DNA of 39,898 nucleotides, from positions 1 through 39,898 of the IMG/VR virus record IMGVR_UViG_3300025674_006908. One strand, 5' to 3'. Of the stretch, positions 7,865 to 30,948 are shown one piece after another. The notes under the pieces were generated by a model, which did no database searches, was not told the DNA's origin, and worked only from the letters and a program-made list of their open reading frames with translations. Position 1 is the first letter of the stretch; every line of letters starts with the position of its first letter. A program made the translations under genes and the position numbers. The DNA is from a virus.

Positions 7865-8239
7865 ATGAACATAAAAGAAATACAACAAGAAATCCATAAA
7901 GTCAATGTAGAAAAAGGCTTTTGGGAAGATAGAAAAAATGTAGGCGAAGTTTTGATGCTAATCGTATCAGAGTTAGGCGAAGCATTAGAAGCACATCGAG
8001 GTTCTAGAAAAGCCTTAGTTGAACTGTTTGATGCAAAAGCAATTGACAGAACTGAAGCAGCAGATTATCAAGCAGATTTTGAACAATGTATTAAAGACAC
8101 ATTTGAAGATGAAATTGCTGATACAGTAATTCGTATTTTTGATATGTGTGAAGGTTTTGGTATTGATTTAGAACGACATATTGAATTGAAATTAGAGTAT
8201 AATAGAACAAGACCGTATAAGCACGGTAAAAAATATTAA
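7865..8239 (+). CDS. MazG-like nucleotide pyrophosphohydrolase
   Basis: A 124-residue all-alpha NTP-pyrophosphatase of the MazG type, which hydrolyses (d)NTPs or modified nucleotides to monophosphates. The metal-binding pattern is visible: E36-x2-E39 in SELGEAL, and E83-x2-D86 in DEIADTVIRIFD, with the typical linker between. The C-terminal LKLEYNRTRPYKHGKKY tail is common in phage and bacterial MazG-like proteins. Phage MazG homologues have been linked to nucleotide-pool cleaning and to altering ppGpp. Here it sits near base-modification genes, so discarding unwanted nucleotides is a plausible role (inference). Confidence 0.88.
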   Translation: MNIKEIQQEIHKVNVEKGFWEDRKNVGEVLMLIVSELGEALEAHRGSRKALVELFDAKAIDRTEAADYQADFEQCIKDTFEDEIADTVIRIFDMCEGFGIDLERHIELKLEYNRTRPYKHGKKY

Positions 8240-11541: not shown

Positions 11542-12993
11542 ATGGCAAAAAAGAAGATTCTGCTTCTGGCAGATGATCTACGGTTACCGTCTGGTATTGG
11601 AACTATTAGTAAAGAGATAGTTTTAAAGACAGTTCACAAATATGATTGGGTTCAAATTGGTGCTGCAATGAAACACCCAGAACAAGGTAAAACGTTTGAT
11701 ATATCACCAGATGTTCAAAAAGAGACTGGTGTACAAGATGCAAGTGTGAAAATTATTCCATGGGATGGTTATGGTGATAGAAATATTTTGTTTCAAGTAA
11801 TTGAAGCAGAAAAACCAGATGCAATATTTCACTTTACAGATCCAAGATATTGGACGTGGTTGTATGCATTAGAACATGAAATAAAAACAAGATATAAACT
11901 TCCATTAATTTATTATTCAATTTGGGATGACTTACCATATCCAATGTGGAATGCTCCTTTTTATGGAAGTTGTGATTTAATTATGGGTATTTCAAAACAA
12001 TCTGATAATATTCATAGAGAAGTATTAGACCAGAATGGTTTTGTTAATATTGATTTAGACACGCACGGAAGACAACCAAATCAAAAAGATTTATGGAATA
12101 CTGTATATACAGCATATGTTCCACACGGTTTAGATGAAAATTATTTTAAACCATTAGAAGAAACGGATAAAACATATCAAGAAATGTTTAAACGTTTAAA
12201 AACAGATAACAATGTTGATTTCATCGTGATGTGGAATAACAGAAATATCAGAAGGAAGCAACCAGGTGATGTTATTTTAGCATTTAAGCATTTTGTTTCT
12301 AAATTACCAGAGTCACAAAAGAAACGAGTTGCGTTATTTATGCATACGCAGATTGTTGATGGAAACGGAACGGATTTGCGAGCTATATCAAAATCAGTAG
12401 CTCCTGAGTGTATAATATTGTTCTCAGAACAAAAAGTTTCCGCACAAGACTTAAATGCAATGTATAATGTAGCAGACGTTGTAGTAAATATTGCATCAAA
12501 TGAAGGTTGGGGACTTAGTAGCACTGAAGCATTACTTGCTGGAACAGTTATTGTTAATAACGTAACGGGCGGATTGCAAGATCAAATGAGATTTGAAGAT
12601 GAACATGGCGAATGGATTACTTTTAACAAAGAGTTTTCAACAAACCATGCAGCAAACTATAAAAAACATGGTGATTGGGCAATACCAGTATTCCCAAGTA
12701 ATCGTTCATTACAAGGTTCTCCAGCTACTCCGTATATTTTTGATGACAGAGTACAATATCAAGATGTTGGAGATGCATTCCATAAGTGGTGGGAACATTC
12801 TGCAGAATATAGAAAAGAATCTGGGTTGAAAGGTAGAGAATTTTGTTTAACTCATGGATTAACTGCAAAGCAAATGGCAGACACTATGATCAAACATATT
12901 GACTTTTTATTAACACAACCAAAAGAGTCTAGACCAAAATATACATTTAATAAAATAGAAACTCCAAGATACGAAAATATAGGTATAGTATAA
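11542..12993 (+). CDS. GT-B glycosyltransferase (group 1-like)
   Basis: A 483-residue GT-B protein. The N-terminal domain begins KKILLLADDLRLPSGIGTI; the donor domain has VMWNNRNIRRKQPGDVILAF, followed by NIASNEGWGLSSTEALLAGT, the E-x7-E-type group 1 motif. It opens the 15-kb glycan island and overlaps the next gene by TAATG. An AGGTTAC element precedes the ATG, as before the clamp gene. Sugar and acceptor are unknown. Confidence 0.88.
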   Translation: MAKKKILLLADDLRLPSGIGTISKEIVLKTVHKYDWVQIGAAMKHPEQGKTFDISPDVQKETGVQDASVKIIPWDGYGDRNILFQVIEAEKPDAIFHFTDPRYWTWLYALEHEIKTRYKLPLIYYSIWDDLPYPMWNAPFYGSCDLIMGISKQSDNIHREVLDQNGFVNIDLDTHGRQPNQKDLWNTVYTAYVPHGLDENYFKPLEETDKTYQEMFKRLKTDNNVDFIVMWNNRNIRRKQPGDVILAFKHFVSKLPESQKKRVALFMHTQIVDGNGTDLRAISKSVAPECIILFSEQKVSAQDLNAMYNVADVVVNIASNEGWGLSSTEALLAGTVIVNNVTGGLQDQMRFEDEHGEWITFNKEFSTNHAANYKKHGDWAIPVFPSNRSLQGSPATPYIFDDRVQYQDVGDAFHKWWEHSAEYRKESGLKGREFCLTHGLTAKQMADTMIKHIDFLLTQPKESRPKYTFNKIETPRYENIGIV

Positions 12994-14279
12994 TGAGAAA
13001 TGTAGTTATAGCATCGCCAATTCAGACACAGTCTGGTTACGGATATCATGCTCGTGAATTTGTAAAAAATATTTTAGAGCAAACACAATCAGAATGGAAT
13101 GTAAAATTATTATCAATGCCATGGGGTATGACACCATTTTCATATCCAGTGCCAGAAGAATGGAAATCAAAATTTACAAAAATTCCAATTCAATCAAATC
13201 CAGATATTTGGATTCAAATTACAGTACCAAATGAATTTCAGCGAGTGGGTCGTTATAATATTGGTGTTACTGCAGGCACGGAAGGAACGGTTTGCCCGCC
13301 AGAGTGGATTGATAAAATTAATGAATTCAATTTAATTATCGTTCCTTCTGAATTTACGAAACAAACATTTTATGAAACTGCAAAACAGACAAATAAAACA
13401 ATTACTACAACAATACGAGTTGTTCCAGAATATTTTGATGAAGAATACTTTGATCGAAGTAACCCATTAATTGAAATAGATGGTATAGATGATATAAAAG
13501 AAGATTTTGCATTTTTATTTGTTGGACATTGGTTGCAAGGTCAAATTGGACAAGACAGAAAAGATATATCTGGTATGATCCATACATTCTTTAATACTTA
13601 TAAAGATACAAAAAATGCACCTGCACTTATAATTAAAACGGGTGGCGCTACATATTCTATAACAGATAGATTTGATATTGATAATAAAGTAGAACAAATT
13701 AAAGAAATGTTTGCTAGACATGAACTTCCGAATATTTACTTATTACATGGTGAATTATCAGATGATGAAATGAATTCATTATATAACCATAAAAAGGTTA
13801 AAGCAATGATATCATTTACAAAAGCCGAAGGATTTGGTCGTCCATTACTTGAATTTGCAACAACGGGAAAGCCAATATTGGCTCCGCATTATTCAGGTCA
13901 AGCAGATTTTCTTAAAAAAGAATTCATATGTGCATTGCCAGGTCGTTTAACACCAATTCATCAATCAGCACAGAATCCATTTTTAATTAAAGAAGCTTCT
14001 TGGTTTACTGTAGATTATAAGTATGCTGGAAACATGATGAAAGAAGTTCAAAAAAATTACAAGAAATGGTTAGAATTAGGTAAGCGTCAAAGATTTTTTG
14101 CAATATCTAATTTTAGTAGCACTGCAGTAAAAGAACATTATAAATCATTAGTTGAATTTGTTACGGAACAAACTAAATCAATTCCAGTTACGCAAGAATT
14201 AAAACTTCCTAAATTGCAAAAAATTGGTGAGAAAAAAGAAACACCTAAAATTCAACTTCCTAAACTTCAAAAAGTATGA
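12993..14279 (+). CDS. GT-B glycosyltransferase (group 1-like) with LPKLQK repeat tail
   Basis: A 428-residue GT-B transferase. The donor half has AFLFVGHWLQGQIGQDRKDI and SFTKAEGFGRPLLEFATTGKP, the group 1 EGFGRPxLE signature. The N-terminal IASPIQTQSGYGYHAREF segment fits the acceptor domain. The C-terminus carries two copies of an LPKLQK-type motif (ELKLPKLQKI and IQLPKLQKV) about 20 residues apart, which looks like a short docking or anchoring tail and is unusual for this family. It is coupled by TAATG upstream and ATGA downstream. Confidence 0.88.
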   Translation: MRNVVIASPIQTQSGYGYHAREFVKNILEQTQSEWNVKLLSMPWGMTPFSYPVPEEWKSKFTKIPIQSNPDIWIQITVPNEFQRVGRYNIGVTAGTEGTVCPPEWIDKINEFNLIIVPSEFTKQTFYETAKQTNKTITTTIRVVPEYFDEEYFDRSNPLIEIDGIDDIKEDFAFLFVGHWLQGQIGQDRKDISGMIHTFFNTYKDTKNAPALIIKTGGATYSITDRFDIDNKVEQIKEMFARHELPNIYLLHGELSDDEMNSLYNHKKVKAMISFTKAEGFGRPLLEFATTGKPILAPHYSGQADFLKKEFICALPGRLTPIHQSAQNPFLIKEASWFTVDYKYAGNMMKEVQKNYKKWLELGKRQRFFAISNFSSTAVKEHYKSLVEFVTEQTKSIPVTQELKLPKLQKIGEKKETPKIQLPKLQKV

Positions 14280-24295: not shown

Positions 24296-25160
24296 GGTTA
24301 CAACTTGTATATCAACAAACAATAATTTAGAATATCTCAAACTTGCAATTAAATCTGTAAGAGAAAATGCTTATTATAAAGATCAACCCATTATTGTTCA
24401 TGCTGAAAATTGTACGGATGGCACGGATCGATGGCTTATTGATAATAAACTTAATTTAGATTTAGAAGTTTATATCGATCATAATGATAGTCCAAAAGGT
24501 ATTGGCGGCGGAATGAATTTTTGTGTGAGTAAATCAAAAACAGAATTCGTTAATATCATACATTCTGATATGTGGATAGCCCCAAATCAAGATTTAGAAT
24601 TATTACGTTTATTTGACAATATAGATGAGTCAGTACGACTAATAGCATCGTCATTTAGAATACAGCCTAAGATATTTCCAAATGACCCAGATTATAGACC
24701 AGGCACGGTGTTTGTTCCAATTGATGAATTTGGTGAGTTTCATCACAATTTTAATGCGGTCTGGTTTGATAAATGGGCAACTGAATTTTCAAAAGAAAAT
24801 GATGTTATTGTTAGAAAAGGTGGCGGCGCTGGGTTCTTTTGTAGAAAAGAAGATTATGAATGGATAGGCGGCAATGACCCTATATTTGCTCCAGCTTCTT
24901 GGGAAGATAAAGATTTATTTATACGTATGCAATTAGAAGGATATGAATTTAAAATGACATCTAAATCAGTAGTGTATCATTTTTCAGCGAGAGGTTCGCA
25001 TTTTAAAGATGATGATATTACGAAAAAATCTCAAAGACAAATTGATGCAGAACAAACAAATATAAGAAAATTCATACAAAAGTGGGGACGTTTACCAGAA
25101 GATGATGATCAAACTTTTGTAAAACCTATTCATGGGACAAATGTAAAAACAAGATTATGA
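24288..25160 (+). CDS. GT-A glycosyltransferase family 2
   Basis: A 290-residue GT2 protein. It has a TTCISTNNNLEYLKLAIKSV opening, NCTDGTDRWL (cf. the D-x-S-x-D-G-T region), and the metal motif as HSDMW (H92-M95). The second acidic site is GGNDPIFAPASWEDKDLFIR, with the WED typical of GT2 acceptor sites. A conserved tail (IRKFIQKWGRLPEDD) is shared with the next gene's product, so they are paralogues. Confidence 0.88.
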   Translation: MHKVTTCISTNNNLEYLKLAIKSVRENAYYKDQPIIVHAENCTDGTDRWLIDNKLNLDLEVYIDHNDSPKGIGGGMNFCVSKSKTEFVNIIHSDMWIAPNQDLELLRLFDNIDESVRLIASSFRIQPKIFPNDPDYRPGTVFVPIDEFGEFHHNFNAVWFDKWATEFSKENDVIVRKGGGAGFFCRKEDYEWIGGNDPIFAPASWEDKDLFIRMQLEGYEFKMTSKSVVYHFSARGSHFKDDDITKKSQRQIDAEQTNIRKFIQKWGRLPEDDDQTFVKPIHGTNVKTRL

Positions 25161-26383
25161 AAATATCCTTAATACAACCGAGTCGAAACAATCTTAAATA
25201 TCTTAAATGGTCATATGATGCTATTCGAAAAAATCAAGGCAATCATACAGTACAAATTTGCGTAGCCGATGATGCATCTACAGATGGTACATGGGAATGG
25301 TGTCAAGAAAGAATGAAAAGTGATGAACATTTCTCAGCAATTCTTAATGATACTGGAAAGCGTCAGGGTCATACAATATTATATGACCGATTAGTTAATG
25401 AAGTAGCAGAACATGATGTTTGTATGATATATCATGCGGATATGTATTTGTGTCCTGGAGCTTTAGATGCTATTGAAAAACATATGTACCAAACACGTAC
25501 ATTGCTTTCAGATCCGCCGCAAGAAAGATTAGTTCCGAATGAAAAAACTATAGTATCACTTACAAGAATTGAACCACCATTACATCCAGATGGGCCTGAG
25601 AAGATTTTATGGGATGGGGGTGTAGAACCAGAAGAATTCAAAGAAGCAGAATTATTAAGTAATTTATCTGAATTTACACAACAAGATAAAACTACAGAAG
25701 GTATATTTGCTCCGTGGGCATTCTGGAAATCAGACTTTCAAGAAATAGGAGGTCATGACCCATTATATGCTCCCCAATCAAAGGAAGACTCAGATATATT
25801 CAATCGTTTTCATTTAAATGGCGTTAAGTTTGTTCAAACATGGGAAGGATTTGTATATCATATGACCTGCAGGGGTTCGAGAAGAAATACCGCAGATAAA
25901 GCTACAAGTATTTATCAAGATTCTCCAGAGTGGTTAGAACAAAATAAACGAAGCACTAGAAACTTTATTAGGAAATGGGGACATTTCGTAGCACATGATG
26001 CCTTAATGAAGCCGATTGTGCCACCTAAATATGATATCGGATTCAAGATTACCAATTGTAGCATTGAATTGTTAGAAGCACTAGAACCATGGTGTAGTAG
26101 AATGGAAATAGATTTGTCAGAAGATATGATAAATCATTATGTTTCAATAGAACAATCAAATACTAAGTTTGATTTGCATAAAAAAATTAATACAGGTAAA
26201 TCTTCAGAAATTGTAATAGAAATTGACGGTATGCGCTTTCAGCAAAATGAATTTAATTTAATGACACAATTATCAATGATTATTCAAGATAGTGGGGAAG
26301 TAGGTGAATTTGAAATTGGAAATTTGAAACTAATTATTAATAAAATGACTGAGTATCAAAACGATTTAATTGTTTGCAGATGA
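25157..26383 (+). CDS. GT-A glycosyltransferase family 2 with C-terminal extension
   Basis: A 408-residue GT2 protein with an intact set of motifs: ISLIQPSRNN, ADDASTDGTW (37-46), the metal site HADM (93-96) and GGHDPLYAPQSKEDSDIF. It matches the preceding GT2 along about 280 residues, then carries a further 120-residue beta-rich domain (about 290-408) that the paralogue lacks, possibly for acceptor binding. It is the last glycosyltransferase of the island and is coupled by ATGA at both ends. Confidence 0.88.
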   Translation: MKISLIQPSRNNLKYLKWSYDAIRKNQGNHTVQICVADDASTDGTWEWCQERMKSDEHFSAILNDTGKRQGHTILYDRLVNEVAEHDVCMIYHADMYLCPGALDAIEKHMYQTRTLLSDPPQERLVPNEKTIVSLTRIEPPLHPDGPEKILWDGGVEPEEFKEAELLSNLSEFTQQDKTTEGIFAPWAFWKSDFQEIGGHDPLYAPQSKEDSDIFNRFHLNGVKFVQTWEGFVYHMTCRGSRRNTADKATSIYQDSPEWLEQNKRSTRNFIRKWGHFVAHDALMKPIVPPKYDIGFKITNCSIELLEALEPWCSRMEIDLSEDMINHYVSIEQSNTKFDLHKKINTGKSSEIVIEIDGMRFQQNEFNLMTQLSMIIQDSGEVGEFEIGNLKLIINKMTEYQNDLIVCR

Positions 26384-27188: not shown

Positions 27189-27797
27189 ATGGCGTGTTTT
27201 ACAAGAGAACAAATACAACAAGCAGTAGAAGGTAAAGGTTATCGTTGGTTTGAAGGCGGTGACTACAATTTGAATATTGTAGGAGTTAGAAATTCAGAAA
27301 CTGGCGGGAAAGTTACTAATAAATTTGATGACTGCGTAACTGTATCATATAGTGTGAATGGCGAAAACAAATTTCACTGTTTTGAAGCAACAACCGACCC
27401 TGGGTCACATTGGGAAAGAAACCTATTAAACAAAGACGGTGTTGCAATCTTAGTACCAGGTCAATACAGGGGTTCTCATACAATTGGATTACATCAAGGT
27501 AAGTATGAAGCTCTTAGACAACATAAACCATTAAAAGTTTATAGAGATAACAACAAAGATGGCGTATATGACTTCTTAGAAGAAAATATTCACGAAGGTA
27601 TATACGGAATCAACATTCACAGAGCCACTTCAAGAGAAGGTGGGAAATCTGTACAGATTGATAAGTGGTCAGCAGGTTGCCAAGTAATCGCAGCAAATGC
27701 AGATTTCAAATTGTTTATGGAGTTAGTGAATAAGGCTGCAAAACTTTACGGAAACTCATTTACTTATACATTGATTGAAAGTAAAGATATTTCATAA
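27189..27797 (+). CDS. Endolysin-like L,D-transpeptidase-fold peptidoglycan enzyme
   Basis: A 202-residue soluble protein with no signal peptide. It has the YkuD-like active-site arrangement GINIHRAT...WSAGCQVI, with H144 and the S161-A-G163-C164 triplet about 20 residues apart. The usual His of SHGC is Ala. Enzymes of this fold attack or rearrange peptide bridges in peptidoglycan, so a lytic carboxy- or endopeptidase role is likely. It lies between two holin-like genes. Without a signal peptide it would need a holin to reach the wall. Confidence 0.75.
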   Translation: MACFTREQIQQAVEGKGYRWFEGGDYNLNIVGVRNSETGGKVTNKFDDCVTVSYSVNGENKFHCFEATTDPGSHWERNLLNKDGVAILVPGQYRGSHTIGLHQGKYEALRQHKPLKVYRDNNKDGVYDFLEENIHEGIYGINIHRATSREGGKSVQIDKWSAGCQVIAANADFKLFMELVNKAAKLYGNSFTYTLIESKDIS

Positions 27798-27913
27798 TGA
27801 AAGAATTATCTGATATATTTATAACAAAAGAGTTCAAAGAACTTCGATGGACTCAACGATTGTGGATGCGAATAAAAGTGGCATTCGTAGAATTAATTCA
27901 ATATGGGTTCTAA
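27797..27913 (+). CDS. 38-residue small ORF between endolysin and holin
   Basis: ATG at 27797 overlaps the endolysin stop (TAATG), and the stop at 27913 is followed one nt later by the ATG at 27915 of the four-helix holin. The product is amphipathic (MKELSDIFITKEFKELRW...), with aromatic and basic residues. The coupling supports a real gene; a role in lysis regulation is only suggested by position. Confidence 0.5.
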   Translation: MKELSDIFITKEFKELRWTQRLWMRIKVAFVELIQYGF

Positions 27914-27914
27914 A

Positions 27915-28343
27915 ATGGAATTATTAAAATCAACCTGGACACAGGTTATTATGTCGATTAGTACGGCGTGTGCATTTATGGGTTCATATTTTATGAATTT
28001 AACCGCAGATAACACCGAACAATATCTTGCATTAGTTGCAGTTGTTCTATTAGATGGATTCTTTGGTCTTATTGCTGGAATTAAAAGAGAAGGATTCAAA
28101 ACATACAAAGCGGTTAAAGTTTTAAAAACACTATTTGCTTGGATATTAATATTAACAGTAATTCTTTCAGTAGAATTAGGATTTAAAGGCACATCTTGGT
28201 TATCAGAAACCATTTTGGTGCCTTTTATTGTTTTCCAACTTATCTCAGCTCTTAAAAATGCTTCAATGAGTGGTTTCATCAAAACAGAGTTACTTAATAA
28301 GATTCTTGATAAGATTGACCAACATAAAGGAGATAGAAAATGA
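27915..28343 (+). CDS. Phage holin, four membrane helices
   Basis: A 142-residue protein from the ATG at 27915, one nt after the preceding stop; an ATG at 27903 is an alternative adding four residues. Four hydrophobic segments are visible. LALVAVVLLDGFFGLIAGIKREGF matches the D-x-x-x-G-x-x-A/G-x-x-K signature of the holin_4 (TcdE/HP1-like) family. A charged C-terminus (DKIDQHKGDRK) fits a cytoplasmic tail. Together with the endolysin upstream this is the lysis module. Confidence 0.78.
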   Translation: MELLKSTWTQVIMSISTACAFMGSYFMNLTADNTEQYLALVAVVLLDGFFGLIAGIKREGFKTYKAVKVLKTLFAWILILTVILSVELGFKGTSWLSETILVPFIVFQLISALKNASMSGFIKTELLNKILDKIDQHKGDRK

Positions 28344-28540
28344 AAACGTTACTACAATATATAACATCAACCAGAATGGTTTACTTTCTAATGTCAATGG
28401 TATTGATAGTAGGGTATCTATTTCAATCTTGGGAAGTTGTAATATTTGTTTGTTTGATGTTACAAATCGGCCTTTGGACAGGATTCTGTCCTTCAAAATA
28501 CTTTTTTGAGAAATGTGGGTTTAAGAAAACGGAGCTGTAA
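28340..28540 (+). CDS. Small two-helix membrane protein (DUF2892/YgaP-like)
   Basis: A 66-residue protein with two membrane helices (about 13-31 and 33-48) and a C-terminal GFCPSKYFFEKCGFKK segment. The R..YF...G.LF...W pattern with a C-P motif resembles DUF2892 (YgaP-type) membrane proteins. A GGAG Shine-Dalgarno lies before the ATG. Its stop abuts the histidine kinase ATG, so it could be the membrane partner or an immunity/antiholin-type component for the lysis and signalling genes. Confidence 0.62.
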   Translation: MKTLLQYITSTRMVYFLMSMVLIVGYLFQSWEVVIFVCLMLQIGLWTGFCPSKYFFEKCGFKKTEL

Positions 28541-29827
28541 ATGAACGCTCTGGATGGAATATCTATAAATTCCAAAATCTCCTTAATAGTTGCAGGTCTA
28601 ATTATGATGACCTTCTTTGCAGTACAAACCTGTATTGTATTTGGGATATGTGAACCAACCTTATTTCTTGCCAAATTTGGATGGGGATGTGTTGTATTCT
28701 TTATGCCACCATTCTTTAAAGTGGTACAAGAGTTTATTAAGAAAACTAAAATTAAAGAAGCTAAAATTAATACTCAACTAAACGCAATTGATAAATCTAA
28801 TTTAATAGTAACTCTAGGAATGGACACTACTATATTATCAGCTAATCAAAATTTTCTTAATGTAGTAGGTTATTCAGAAGACGAAATACTAAATAGCAAA
28901 CACCCTGATTTATGTACTACTGATTTTAAATCAAGTAAAGAATATAAAACTTTCTGGGAAAAATTACACAATGGAGAATTTGTTTCTGGGGAATTTGAAC
29001 GTGTAAATAAAAACGGAGAATCAATATGGTTATTTGGTACATATACCCCGTTACGGAATGCTAACGGAGTGTATGATAAAGTACTTAAAATAGCTGTTGA
29101 TATTACATCACAACATAAAGCTGAAGCAGAAGTTAAACAAAAAAGTATTTACTTAGAACACGCTGCAAAAATCATTAGACATGATATGCATAGTGGTATC
29201 AACACTTACATTCCAAGAGGATTAAATTCACTTCAAAGAAGGTTGGATGATGAACAAAAGAAAAAACTAAGAGCACCACTACAATTGTTAGGAGATGGTG
29301 TTAAACATGCTCAAAAAGTATATAGTGGAGTATATGAATTTACTAATTTAGTAAAAGAAAATGCTCAGATGTCGAAAACACCAAATAACATTAAACAAAT
29401 CTTAGATGAATATTTATCACTTACTGCATATAAAAATCAGATTCTTTTAGATGATAATTTACCTGTATCATTAGAAGTAAACGAACCACTTTTTTGTACT
29501 GCAATTGATAACTTAATTAGAAATGGATTAAAGTATAATGATTCACCAACAAAATGGGTTAAAATATATTTTGAAGGTAATTATAATAAAGGGAGCTTCA
29601 TTATTATCGAAGATAATGGTAGAGGTATGACTCAGAGTGAATTTGATGAGTTATCTAAACCATATATTCGTAAAGAAGGTCAAAAAGAGAAAGGAACGGG
29701 TCTTGGTTTAAATATTTGTAAAGCTATACTAAAGGAGCATGGTTTTGAACTTTCAATTGAAGAAATAGAAGATGACCCCGACACAGTTGAAATTGAAAGT
29801 GGAACTAAAATGAAAATAAAGATATGA
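28541..29827 (+). CDS. Membrane PAS-domain sensor histidine kinase
   Basis: A 428-residue complete sensor kinase. Two membrane helices lie near residues 12-36 and 40-62, with a short loop between. A PAS domain follows (about 83-192: NLIVTLGMDTTILSANQNFL, GYSEDEIL, WLFGTYTPLRN and the DITSQHKAEAE linker). The dimerisation helix carries the phospho-acceptor H214 in IIRHDMH, and the catalytic domain has the N box (N324, N328 in IDNLIRNGLKYN), G1 EDNGRGMT (357-364) and G2 KGTGLGLNI (384-392). All catalytic motifs are intact. It overlaps the response-regulator gene by ATGA. A small periplasmic loop suggests the ligand may be sensed by PAS or within the membrane. Confidence 0.92.
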   Translation: MNALDGISINSKISLIVAGLIMMTFFAVQTCIVFGICEPTLFLAKFGWGCVVFFMPPFFKVVQEFIKKTKIKEAKINTQLNAIDKSNLIVTLGMDTTILSANQNFLNVVGYSEDEILNSKHPDLCTTDFKSSKEYKTFWEKLHNGEFVSGEFERVNKNGESIWLFGTYTPLRNANGVYDKVLKIAVDITSQHKAEAEVKQKSIYLEHAAKIIRHDMHSGINTYIPRGLNSLQRRLDDEQKKKLRAPLQLLGDGVKHAQKVYSGVYEFTNLVKENAQMSKTPNNIKQILDEYLSLTAYKNQILLDDNLPVSLEVNEPLFCTAIDNLIRNGLKYNDSPTKWVKIYFEGNYNKGSFIIIEDNGRGMTQSEFDELSKPYIRKEGQKEKGTGLGLNICKAILKEHGFELSIEEIEDDPDTVEIESGTKMKIKI

Positions 29828-30261
29828 TTGATTCGTTAATGTTAGTAGATGATGAAAATTTGTTTCATCTTGTGTTTGAAGATGCGTGTTCTCTATTAGA
29901 TATTACTCTTGCATTAGAAGCATTGGATTCTTCTGATGAAGCAGATAAACTTTTTAAGAAATGGTTTACAGATGGTCCTGTAGATGAAAGACCAGATTGT
30001 GTATTTGTTGATTTAAATATAATTGGGTCTTCCTTTGATGGTATCGAATTAATCAGAAAAATAAATTATGATTATGGTAATGGGGTAGTTATCGGAATCA
30101 TTTCATCTTCTCAGGACGAACAAGAAATTGAAAAAGCTAGAGCAGTTGGAGCTCAATTTTGGATTATTAAATCAGATGATATAGAACCTAGATTAGAAGA
30201 ATTTAAAGCTGATTATGAAGGTTATAAAAATAGAACAGCACCTTTCAAAGTGTACAAGTAA
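29824..30261 (+). CDS. Single-domain response regulator
   Basis: A 145-residue receiver domain with the acidic pair D9-D10 (LMLVDDENL), phospho-acceptor D63 (CVFVDLNI), Ser at the Thr/Ser position (IISSS, about 93-96) and K116 (WIIKSDD). There is no DNA-binding or enzymatic output domain, as in CheY or Spo0F, so the signal must pass by protein contact. It is coupled by ATGA to the kinase, its likely partner. Ten nt after its stop begins a coiled-coil membrane protein that could be the effector. Confidence 0.9.
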   Translation: MIDSLMLVDDENLFHLVFEDACSLLDITLALEALDSSDEADKLFKKWFTDGPVDERPDCVFVDLNIIGSSFDGIELIRKINYDYGNGVVIGIISSSQDEQEIEKARAVGAQFWIIKSDDIEPRLEEFKADYEGYKNRTAPFKVYK

Positions 30262-30270
30262 TGAAGAAAG

Positions 30271-30948
30271 ATGAAAATACAAAAATCTACGAGGGATATT
30301 CTATTAGAAATAGCCAAACATAAGAGAGTTTATGTTGAGGGTAACTTTCTAAAACTCATTGAGCCAGAAGAAGGTGATGAAGAGTTCGAAGAATATTTAA
30401 AGTTATGTAAAGAAAAAGATTCAACTTCTCGTAGAAAAAGATTAGAAGTTACAAAACAAGTTCAAAAACAAAATTCTGAATTAGAGAAGGCTCAAAAAGA
30501 AAACAAACGAGTAAATAGACAATTAGAAAAAGCTCTTAACGAAGCCATAGATTCTGCAGAACAATCAAAAAAATCAAAAGAAGAAGCTGAAAAGGCAAAA
30601 GAAGAATTGGAAGTTGCATTACAACTTGCAGAACAATCTAAAGAAGAAGCCCATAAATTAAAGGCTGAAGCAGAACACGCAAAAGAGGTTGCAGAAACCG
30701 ACCTCTCATTACTACAAAAGAAAACACAAACCGAATTGATGGGTAACATCGTAAGAGTTGCTCTATGGGTTATTATGGGTGTAGGCTTACTTACTACAGC
30801 ATTATATGTATTTGTGATGGTAAGAGGATTAGATGCTAAAATTATTGAATCAACCTGGTCAAATCTATTTGGTATCTTACTTACAAATTCATTCAGTATT
30901 ATTGGTACTATTATGGGTGTTAAACACGCTACTAAAGACAAAGAATAG
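30271..30948 (+). CDS. Coiled-coil membrane protein, possible effector of the two-component system
   Basis: A 225-residue protein. An N-terminal segment (1-55) with no recognised domain is followed by a long, very charged coiled coil (about 55-155, rich in KEEAEKAKEELE-type heptads) and then two membrane helices (about 160-184 and 199-217). The domain order suggests a long cytoplasmic arm anchored at the inner membrane. It directly follows the response regulator and is the last gene of the lysis/two-component unit. No homologue is recognised; an effector role is inference from position. Confidence 0.75.
   Translation: MKIQKSTRDILLEIAKHKRVYVEGNFLKLIEPEEGDEEFEEYLKLCKEKDSTSRRKRLEVTKQVQKQNSELEKAQKENKRVNRQLEKALNEAIDSAEQSKKSKEEAEKAKEELEVALQLAEQSKEEAHKLKAEAEHAKEVAETDLSLLQKKTQTELMGNIVRVALWVIMGVGLLTTALYVFVMVRGLDAKIIESTWSNLFGILLTNSFSIIGTIMGVKHATKDKE

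Follow-up and report, generated by a model that had tools for sequence, protein, structure and literature searches.

Gene content of the locus

The window, i.e., the whole stretch of DNA that was analysed, is an entire virus record of 39,898 bp whose completeness is unstated in the record, and it has matches to a DNA polymerase, a processivity factor (clamp) and a clamp loader. The locus of interest carries, in this order, genes for an endolysin, a holin, a 66-residue protein, a histidine kinase, a receiver and a protein that we call CC. Its features are as follows, in coordinates of the window:

27189..27797, + strand: endolysin (phrog_33083 endolysin, 1.7e-15); a neighbour, not a constant part of the module
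27797-27913: 38-aa frame that lies between the endolysin and holin genes and overlaps each
27903..28343, + strand: holin (PF05105, 2.4e-6; phrog_199 holin, 2.6e-6); a neighbour, not a constant part
28340..28540, + strand: 66-aa membrane protein with a conserved CPSK motif, directly upstream of the kinase
28541..29827, + strand: membrane PAS histidine kinase, 428 aa, intact ORF
28739..29138, + strand: block with the PAS domain, which the kinase of a near-identical phage (L012) lacks
29129..29824, + strand: kinase core, i.e., dimerisation helix plus ATPase (alignment A3)
29180..29182, + strand: codon (CAT) of the predicted phospho-acceptor H214, inside the RHDMHSGIN box
29824..30261, + strand: single-domain CheY-like receiver, 145 aa (PF00072, 1.6e-7)
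30010..30012, + strand: codon of the predicted phospho-acceptor D63, D in 144/144 loci
30271..30948, + strand: CC protein, 225 aa, placed in the module as its third gene by independent scans, and proposed receiver output
30271..30546, + strand: CC head and start of the coiled coil (LEGN...KRLEITKQVQ; alignment A5), also found in the L095 fusion
30745..30939, + strand: CC membrane hairpin, second helix ILLTNSFSIIGTIMGVK (AF2 model and TM2 motif)

The first-pass annotation had described an intact kinase (H214, N, G1 and G2 boxes) and an intact receiver (D9, D10, D63 and K116) that follow endolysin, holin and a small membrane protein. Both the gene order and the pair were confirmed, and the motifs are conserved; the two ORFs share a 4-nt overlap, and the 105-nt interval that separates endolysin and holin is filled by the 38-aa frame. 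The pair is thus real, but the interval assigned to it (28541-30261) ends too early, since the gene at 30271 belongs to the same unit. The 105-nt spacing recurs in two relatives (L010 and L012), and the best match of the endolysin is phrog_3000 (1.4e-34), a family without function.

Elsewhere in the window, glycosyltransferase-like genes (11542-14279 and 25157-26383; phrog_2170), with a weak GtrB-like match (phrog_841, 5.7e-5), possibly serve envelope modification, and a pyrophosphatase-like gene lies at 7865-8239 (phrog_9236, 2.1e-38). Neither of two promoter motifs is enriched: TATAAATA, which we take to be a late-promoter motif, occurs 8 times versus 9.4 in shuffles, and TANNTTTG, presumably of Bacteroidota type, 53 times versus 59.9.

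The three-gene unit and its carriers

Receiver scans of IMG/VR yielded 89 relatives, 80 of which were kept, and a divergent receiver query added 64 more. Near-identical loci were removed at 95% DNA identity, which reduced the first 131 loci to 77. Among these, the kinase lies upstream in 77/77 and the CC gene downstream in 75/77 (counting the bacterial locus L095); the two misses are L051, which ends 2 bp past the receiver, and L096, a bacterial contig. The genes are tightly packed, with gaps of at most 20 nt between kinase and receiver in 66 and between receiver and CC in 68 of the 77 loci, and overlaps of 1-8 nt are frequent. Because these loci had been chosen by their receiver, we rescanned with CC (at least 485 relatives) and with the kinase core (at least 559), keeping 80 loci from each; this gave 58 and 57 non-redundant loci, respectively, with enough flank in 49 of each set. 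Kinase and receiver are present in 48/49 of the CC loci (from the 80 kept among at least 485 matches), and the trio is complete in 48/49 of the kinase loci (47/49 by script; from among at least 559 matches), with L258 having its CC gene just past the 4-kb limit and L266 being cut at a contig end. In total, 260 receiver loci were reduced to 144 non-redundant ones, and both partners are present in 139 of these. Leaving out the bacterial L095 and L096, as in all counts of phage loci, the trio is complete in 138/142, and the four misses are at contig ends. The kinase-receiver pair is therefore part of a larger unit that includes CC.

The CC head is encoded at 494 places in IMG/VR. In the 80 of these that were kept, the receiver is near in 74/74 loci with 500 nt upstream, and receiver and kinase are both found in 67/70 loci with 1.6 kb upstream. 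An exception is L176, a phage locus whose CC gene has no kinase or receiver in its vicinity; a search of its 74.5-kb record found no receiver. The parts of the module do recombine: between the window and L003, dS is 0.03 for the kinase core, 0.18 for the receiver and 0.62 for CC, so that close relatives do not strictly inherit the three genes together. The pairwise distances of the three parts correlate (0.48 to 0.66), as expected for neighbouring genes. That the trio travels together in many uncultivated phages suggests a signalling pathway of the phages' own that ends at the membrane.

CC has three parts, a conserved head, a coiled coil whose length varies, and a two-helix membrane hairpin; its AF2 model has helices at residues 37-185 and 190-223. 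The second membrane helix (ILLTN.FSI.GTIMG.K) holds 14 of the 28 invariant columns, and this TM2 motif is present in 80/80 loci found by the CC head (80 kept of 494). Two membrane helices are predicted in 134/142 CC proteins; five of the remaining eight are cut at contig ends and one is L095. Database searches yielded little. Pfam, run on 39 members, found no family in more than 6/39 (DUF2207_C, best 1.6e-4), and the holin family PF23809 matched 1/39 weakly (E 0.005). With the CC model as query, Foldseek gave no PDB match at E ≤ 1 (the top one had 1.2) and a single viral relative at E ≤ 0.001. CC proteins match PADLOC models weakly (best 8.7e-4), and kinase and receiver had no PADLOC match at E ≤ 0.01.

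The two bacterial copies differ from each other. The L095 operon encodes the kinase, the receiver and then a CC head fused to HisKA and HATPase_c domains, with no hairpin; this third protein aligns with the CC profile over its residues 3-109, which correspond to head and coiled coil (E 4.3e-24). L095 was considered as a phage contig and rejected, given its bacterial Pfam neighbours (CreD, Por_Secre_tail and DUF5690). L096 has kinase and receiver, and no CC was found nearby or in its genome; a neighbouring ORF (L096:7032-8579) consists of repeated near-identical PAS domains. The two form a pair (support 0.99) within the phage tree, which is midpoint-rooted and has long tips. Since the head keeps its place in the L095 operon while its attachment changes, the head most simply reads the receiver. 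Judging from gene order and from this single fusion, the head resembles a plug-in input module, and CC would be the output of the receiver; what is attached to the head would most simply serve as output, with a second kinase in this role in the bacterium and a membrane hairpin in the phages. Signalling could also run in the opposite direction, with the second kinase of L095 feeding the receiver.

Receiver and CC had zero matches across 50,697 GenBank phage records, and the kinase matched 7 records, in alignments that cover no more than 54% of its length at 23 to 39% identity; among the viral proteins of a structure library, one is close to the receiver and one to CC, both from uncultured Caudovirales. 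The earlier view that two-component pairs are uncommon in phages agrees with the GenBank phages and is at odds with the 494 CC-head places in IMG/VR. The carriers look like large phages: among 45 carrier records (a set outside which the window itself falls), the T4-type capsid protein gp23 (PF07068) is encoded in 15, among them every virus record (7 of 7) that reaches 186 kb, a cut that was set after the fact, and 3 of the 30 gp23-less records are genome assemblies. A receiver pattern scan of 84,980 species genomes returned three loci, L094, which clusters with viral contigs, and L095 and L096, which lie in Bacteroidetes assemblies on contigs where the surrounding genes are bacterial. Profile searches in the order and phylum of the bacterial copies recovered only the known ones at cut-offs of 1e-20 and 1e-13 (receiver), 1e-45 (kinase core) and 1e-4 (head). 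These searches covered overlapping, non-exhaustive sets of 291 + 395 genomes for the receiver, 395 for the kinase core (at most 7 listed candidates scored per genome) and 390 + 395 for the head, and with such strict cut-offs, more distant bacterial relatives would stay hidden. From the two bacterial copies, our guess is that the hosts are Bacteroidota.

Relay residues and kinase inputs

The window kinase matches PAS (PF08447, 2.9e-13; PF13426, 1.5e-12) and HATPase_c (PF02518, 3.2e-14) families and no HisKA-type Pfam family at E ≤ 0.1, which indicates that its dimerisation helix is divergent. The missing match is a detection limit of the Pfam models and not a loss of the histidine. The RHDMHSGIN box is found in 148/150 kinase ORFs of the 144 non-redundant loci, and the two variant boxes have one neighbouring residue changed and keep the H. 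The N, D-x-G-x-G and G-x-G-x-G columns that were checked are identical in 31/31 kinases. By sequence, the closest solved relatives are 6azr, 3dge and 2c2a (E about 2.5e-13). The L032 and L082 rows of alignment A3 begin past the histidine, and kinase-core values for L032 (170-176 codons aligned) were excluded.

The receiver is the most constrained part. D9, D10, D63, S94, S95, W113 and K116 are identical in all of the 144 loci that cover each position, and the invariant W presumably occupies the switch position in CheY numbering. Conservation of at least 97% extends to 66/145 positions, far beyond the active site. The AlphaFold2 model (pLDDT 91.5) matches CheY with a Z of 17.8 (3chy); a sequence search of the PDB with the receiver profile returned two designed proteins as well as 3ilh and VraR, and Pfam found no DNA-binding or enzyme output domain. 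Median pairwise identity is 74% for the receiver, 65% for the kinase core and 53% for CC. The receiver has the lowest dN/dS of the three in 9/10 pairs, one of them with saturated dS, as have several other pairs; its values are 0.05-0.08 in 8/10 pairs, versus 0.14-0.29 for CC in 10/10. Two values, both at low divergence, speak against strong constraint: 0.40 for the receiver of L010 versus L003, the one pair in which the receiver is not lowest, and 0.73 for the kinase core of the window versus L003.

The part of the kinase ahead of the histidine is variable. The window and L012 share 96.4% DNA identity up to 28738 and 93.8% from 29139, and the PAS block between these positions spans 400 bp in the window versus 34 bp in L012. 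Other inputs comprise membrane helices only, PAS, several PAS, GAF+PAS, and a leader with a periplasmic part, a class that was judged by eye. They range from 49 to more than 500 residues ahead of the histidine, with 0 to 3 predicted membrane helices; 20/147 kinases have none, as counted by a plain hydropathy window rather than a trained predictor. Different sensor domains are fitted to a kinase core and a receiver whose motifs stay the same.

In nine loci (L059, L066, L069, L072, L076, L087, L130, L258 and L266), tandem kinases of the same family occur, preceding a single receiver wherever the contig extends that far, and in L066 and L258 the second kinase begins with a leader-like N-terminus and probably includes a periplasmic part. 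This suggests two inputs on one relay. A 240-aa ORF, which we take to resemble a GIY-YIG homing endonuclease, splits the operon between kinase and receiver in four loci (L060:3144-3866, L066:9273-9995, L069:3324-4046 and L258:8606-9328).

The 66-aa protein goes with particular inputs. A gene of this family lies immediately 5' of the kinase in 61/135 loci with room for it, and accompanies 61/106 kinases with a two-helix input like that of the window versus 0/39 others; it is commoner with short inputs of fewer than 110 residues (37/47) than with long ones (24/98). One of the 3 members scanned matched PF11127 (YgaP-like_TM) at E 0.049, with 14.2 versus a cut-off of 25.3 bits. From this distribution, the protein is probably a co-sensor of the kinase.

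Proposed mechanism, lysis and comparison with known systems

We consider it probable that the module is a phage-borne, three-protein phosphorelay that switches a membrane protein. A signal would enter the kinase via its exchangeable input, be it membrane helices with the small partner, PAS, GAF+PAS or a periplasmic part, upon which the kinase would autophosphorylate at H214 and the phosphate would move to D63. The receiver, having no output domain, may then bind the cytoplasmic head of CC, and the coiled coil could pass the change on to the state of the membrane hairpin. The intact parts, the three-gene unit, the interchangeable inputs, the invariant relay residues and the modular head can be read from the sequences, whereas we infer phosphotransfer, binding of the head by the receiver and the hairpin as effector; permeability, lysis timing and exclusion of other phages are candidate effects of the hairpin. 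More tentatively, a swappable sensor might directly gate a phage membrane pore or holin regulator via a phospho-controlled coiled coil, without a transcription step and with a head shared with a bacterial kinase, and thereby open or seal the infected cell.

The location of the module had been taken to point to lysis. In the window and its relatives, this link stands, as the module follows endolysin and holin there; as a general rule, it does not. For 77 of the 144 loci, 3 kb of flank is available on either side; two of these 77 are bacterial and without a lysis gene, and one of four lysis families (a holin and three lysins) lies within 3 kb in 30/75 phage loci. This is a lower bound from models built on module neighbourhoods, which miss unrelated lysins and also lean towards the module. 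The lysins are the endolysin family of the window, Amidase_2 and GH19; a holin lies within 3 kb in 15/77 flanked loci (the two bacterial ones counted), and the holin family of the window is encoded in 6/31 searched records and 0/8 of those above 110 kb, whose completeness is not given. Elsewhere, the module adjoins ThyX (PF02511) and genes that we take to be dUTPase-like and YceI-like. Moreover, the holins of the window and L032 are 96% identical (dS 0.17) while receiver and CC are distant (dS 1.46 and 1.22), so the module has been exchanged apart from the lysis genes. Its constant partner is the downstream CC gene and not the lysis cassette, and adjacency to lysis genes is not conserved across the family. 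Given this partial linkage and separate exchange, lysis control is no property of the family and is a reasonable hypothesis for the relatives of the window.

A relay that times lysis, in which phosphorylation would control CC as a holin, an antiholin or a regulator of the holin and the sensor would read host or superinfection state, is a reading to which we give limited credence. The position behind endolysin and holin in the window and relatives, the three different lysin families that adjoin the module and the two predicted membrane helices in 134/142 CC proteins fit it, but the 30/75 linkage, the absence of the window's holin family from 8/8 searched records above 110 kb and the single holin-family match among 39 CC members (PF23809, E 0.005) do not. 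It is rather unlikely, in our judgement, that CC is instead a membrane anchor or an extra sensor docking the receiver, with a host protein at the invariant receiver surface as the true output. Such a role would agree with the 66/145 receiver positions conserved at 97% or more and with the 20/147 kinases without a predicted helix, whose pathway CC may bring to the membrane, and the L095 head is joined to a kinase that could feed the receiver. However, the second hairpin helix holds 14/28 of the invariant CC columns, more than a plain anchor should need, and a receiver without an output domain fits either view. Kinases and receivers are common in bacteria, so that host-type accessory genes might have been acquired by chance and now be in the process of being lost. 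This is highly improbable: the catalytic residues are conserved, most pairs show purifying selection, the trio is complete in 138/142 phage loci, and the sampled genomes match only the known bacterial copies at the thresholds used.

Phages are known to listen via single-protein receptors and peptides. The module represents a form of two-component signalling that is carried by phages and common among uncultivated ones; its relay is fixed, its sensors can be exchanged, and its likely output is an undescribed membrane protein. A dedicated pathway of kinase, receiver and membrane protein would be a general sensing device of these phages; the exchange of inputs on a fixed relay would offer a direct route to what they sense, and the head provides an output that can be tested. 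The open-licence PMC literature yielded no description of a kinase-receiver-CC system, nor of a lysis-side kinase/regulator pair, in keeping with the initial impression that the latter is uncharacterised. Two relatives from uncultured Caudovirales are listed without a system being named, A0A6J5RMP2 as a CheY-like receiver (72% identical to the receiver) and A0A6J5PRT3 as uncharacterised (45% identical to CC), both by structure-based alignment.

Among published cases, excerpted text lists a single gene of Alteromonas phage V22 as kinase/CheY-like regulator (PMC7289586) and a pelagiphage kinase that precedes curli genes (PMC9599517); as far as these excerpts go, both share two-component parts with the module, and neither comes with a head/hairpin gene. 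The cREC receivers of jumbo phages share a receiver fold with the module but are described as never occurring with histidine kinases and as linked to NAD/ADPr enzymes (PMC7824862). Two further sources concern vent viruses and host two-component pathways (PMC5513705) and, as a review, quorum sensing (PMC7790227). In its chemistry (histidine, D-D, D, S/T and K), the module resembles bacterial two-component systems with receivers such as CheY and the Cytophaga protein 3ilh, whose folds the receiver model matches with a Z of 17.8 and 17.0, respectively. It differs from bacterial systems with single-domain receivers by its constant third membrane gene and invariant W. The Bacteroidota operon L095 has the same kinase-core and receiver families, head and gene order as the phage module, but its head is joined to a second kinase and its neighbours are bacterial.
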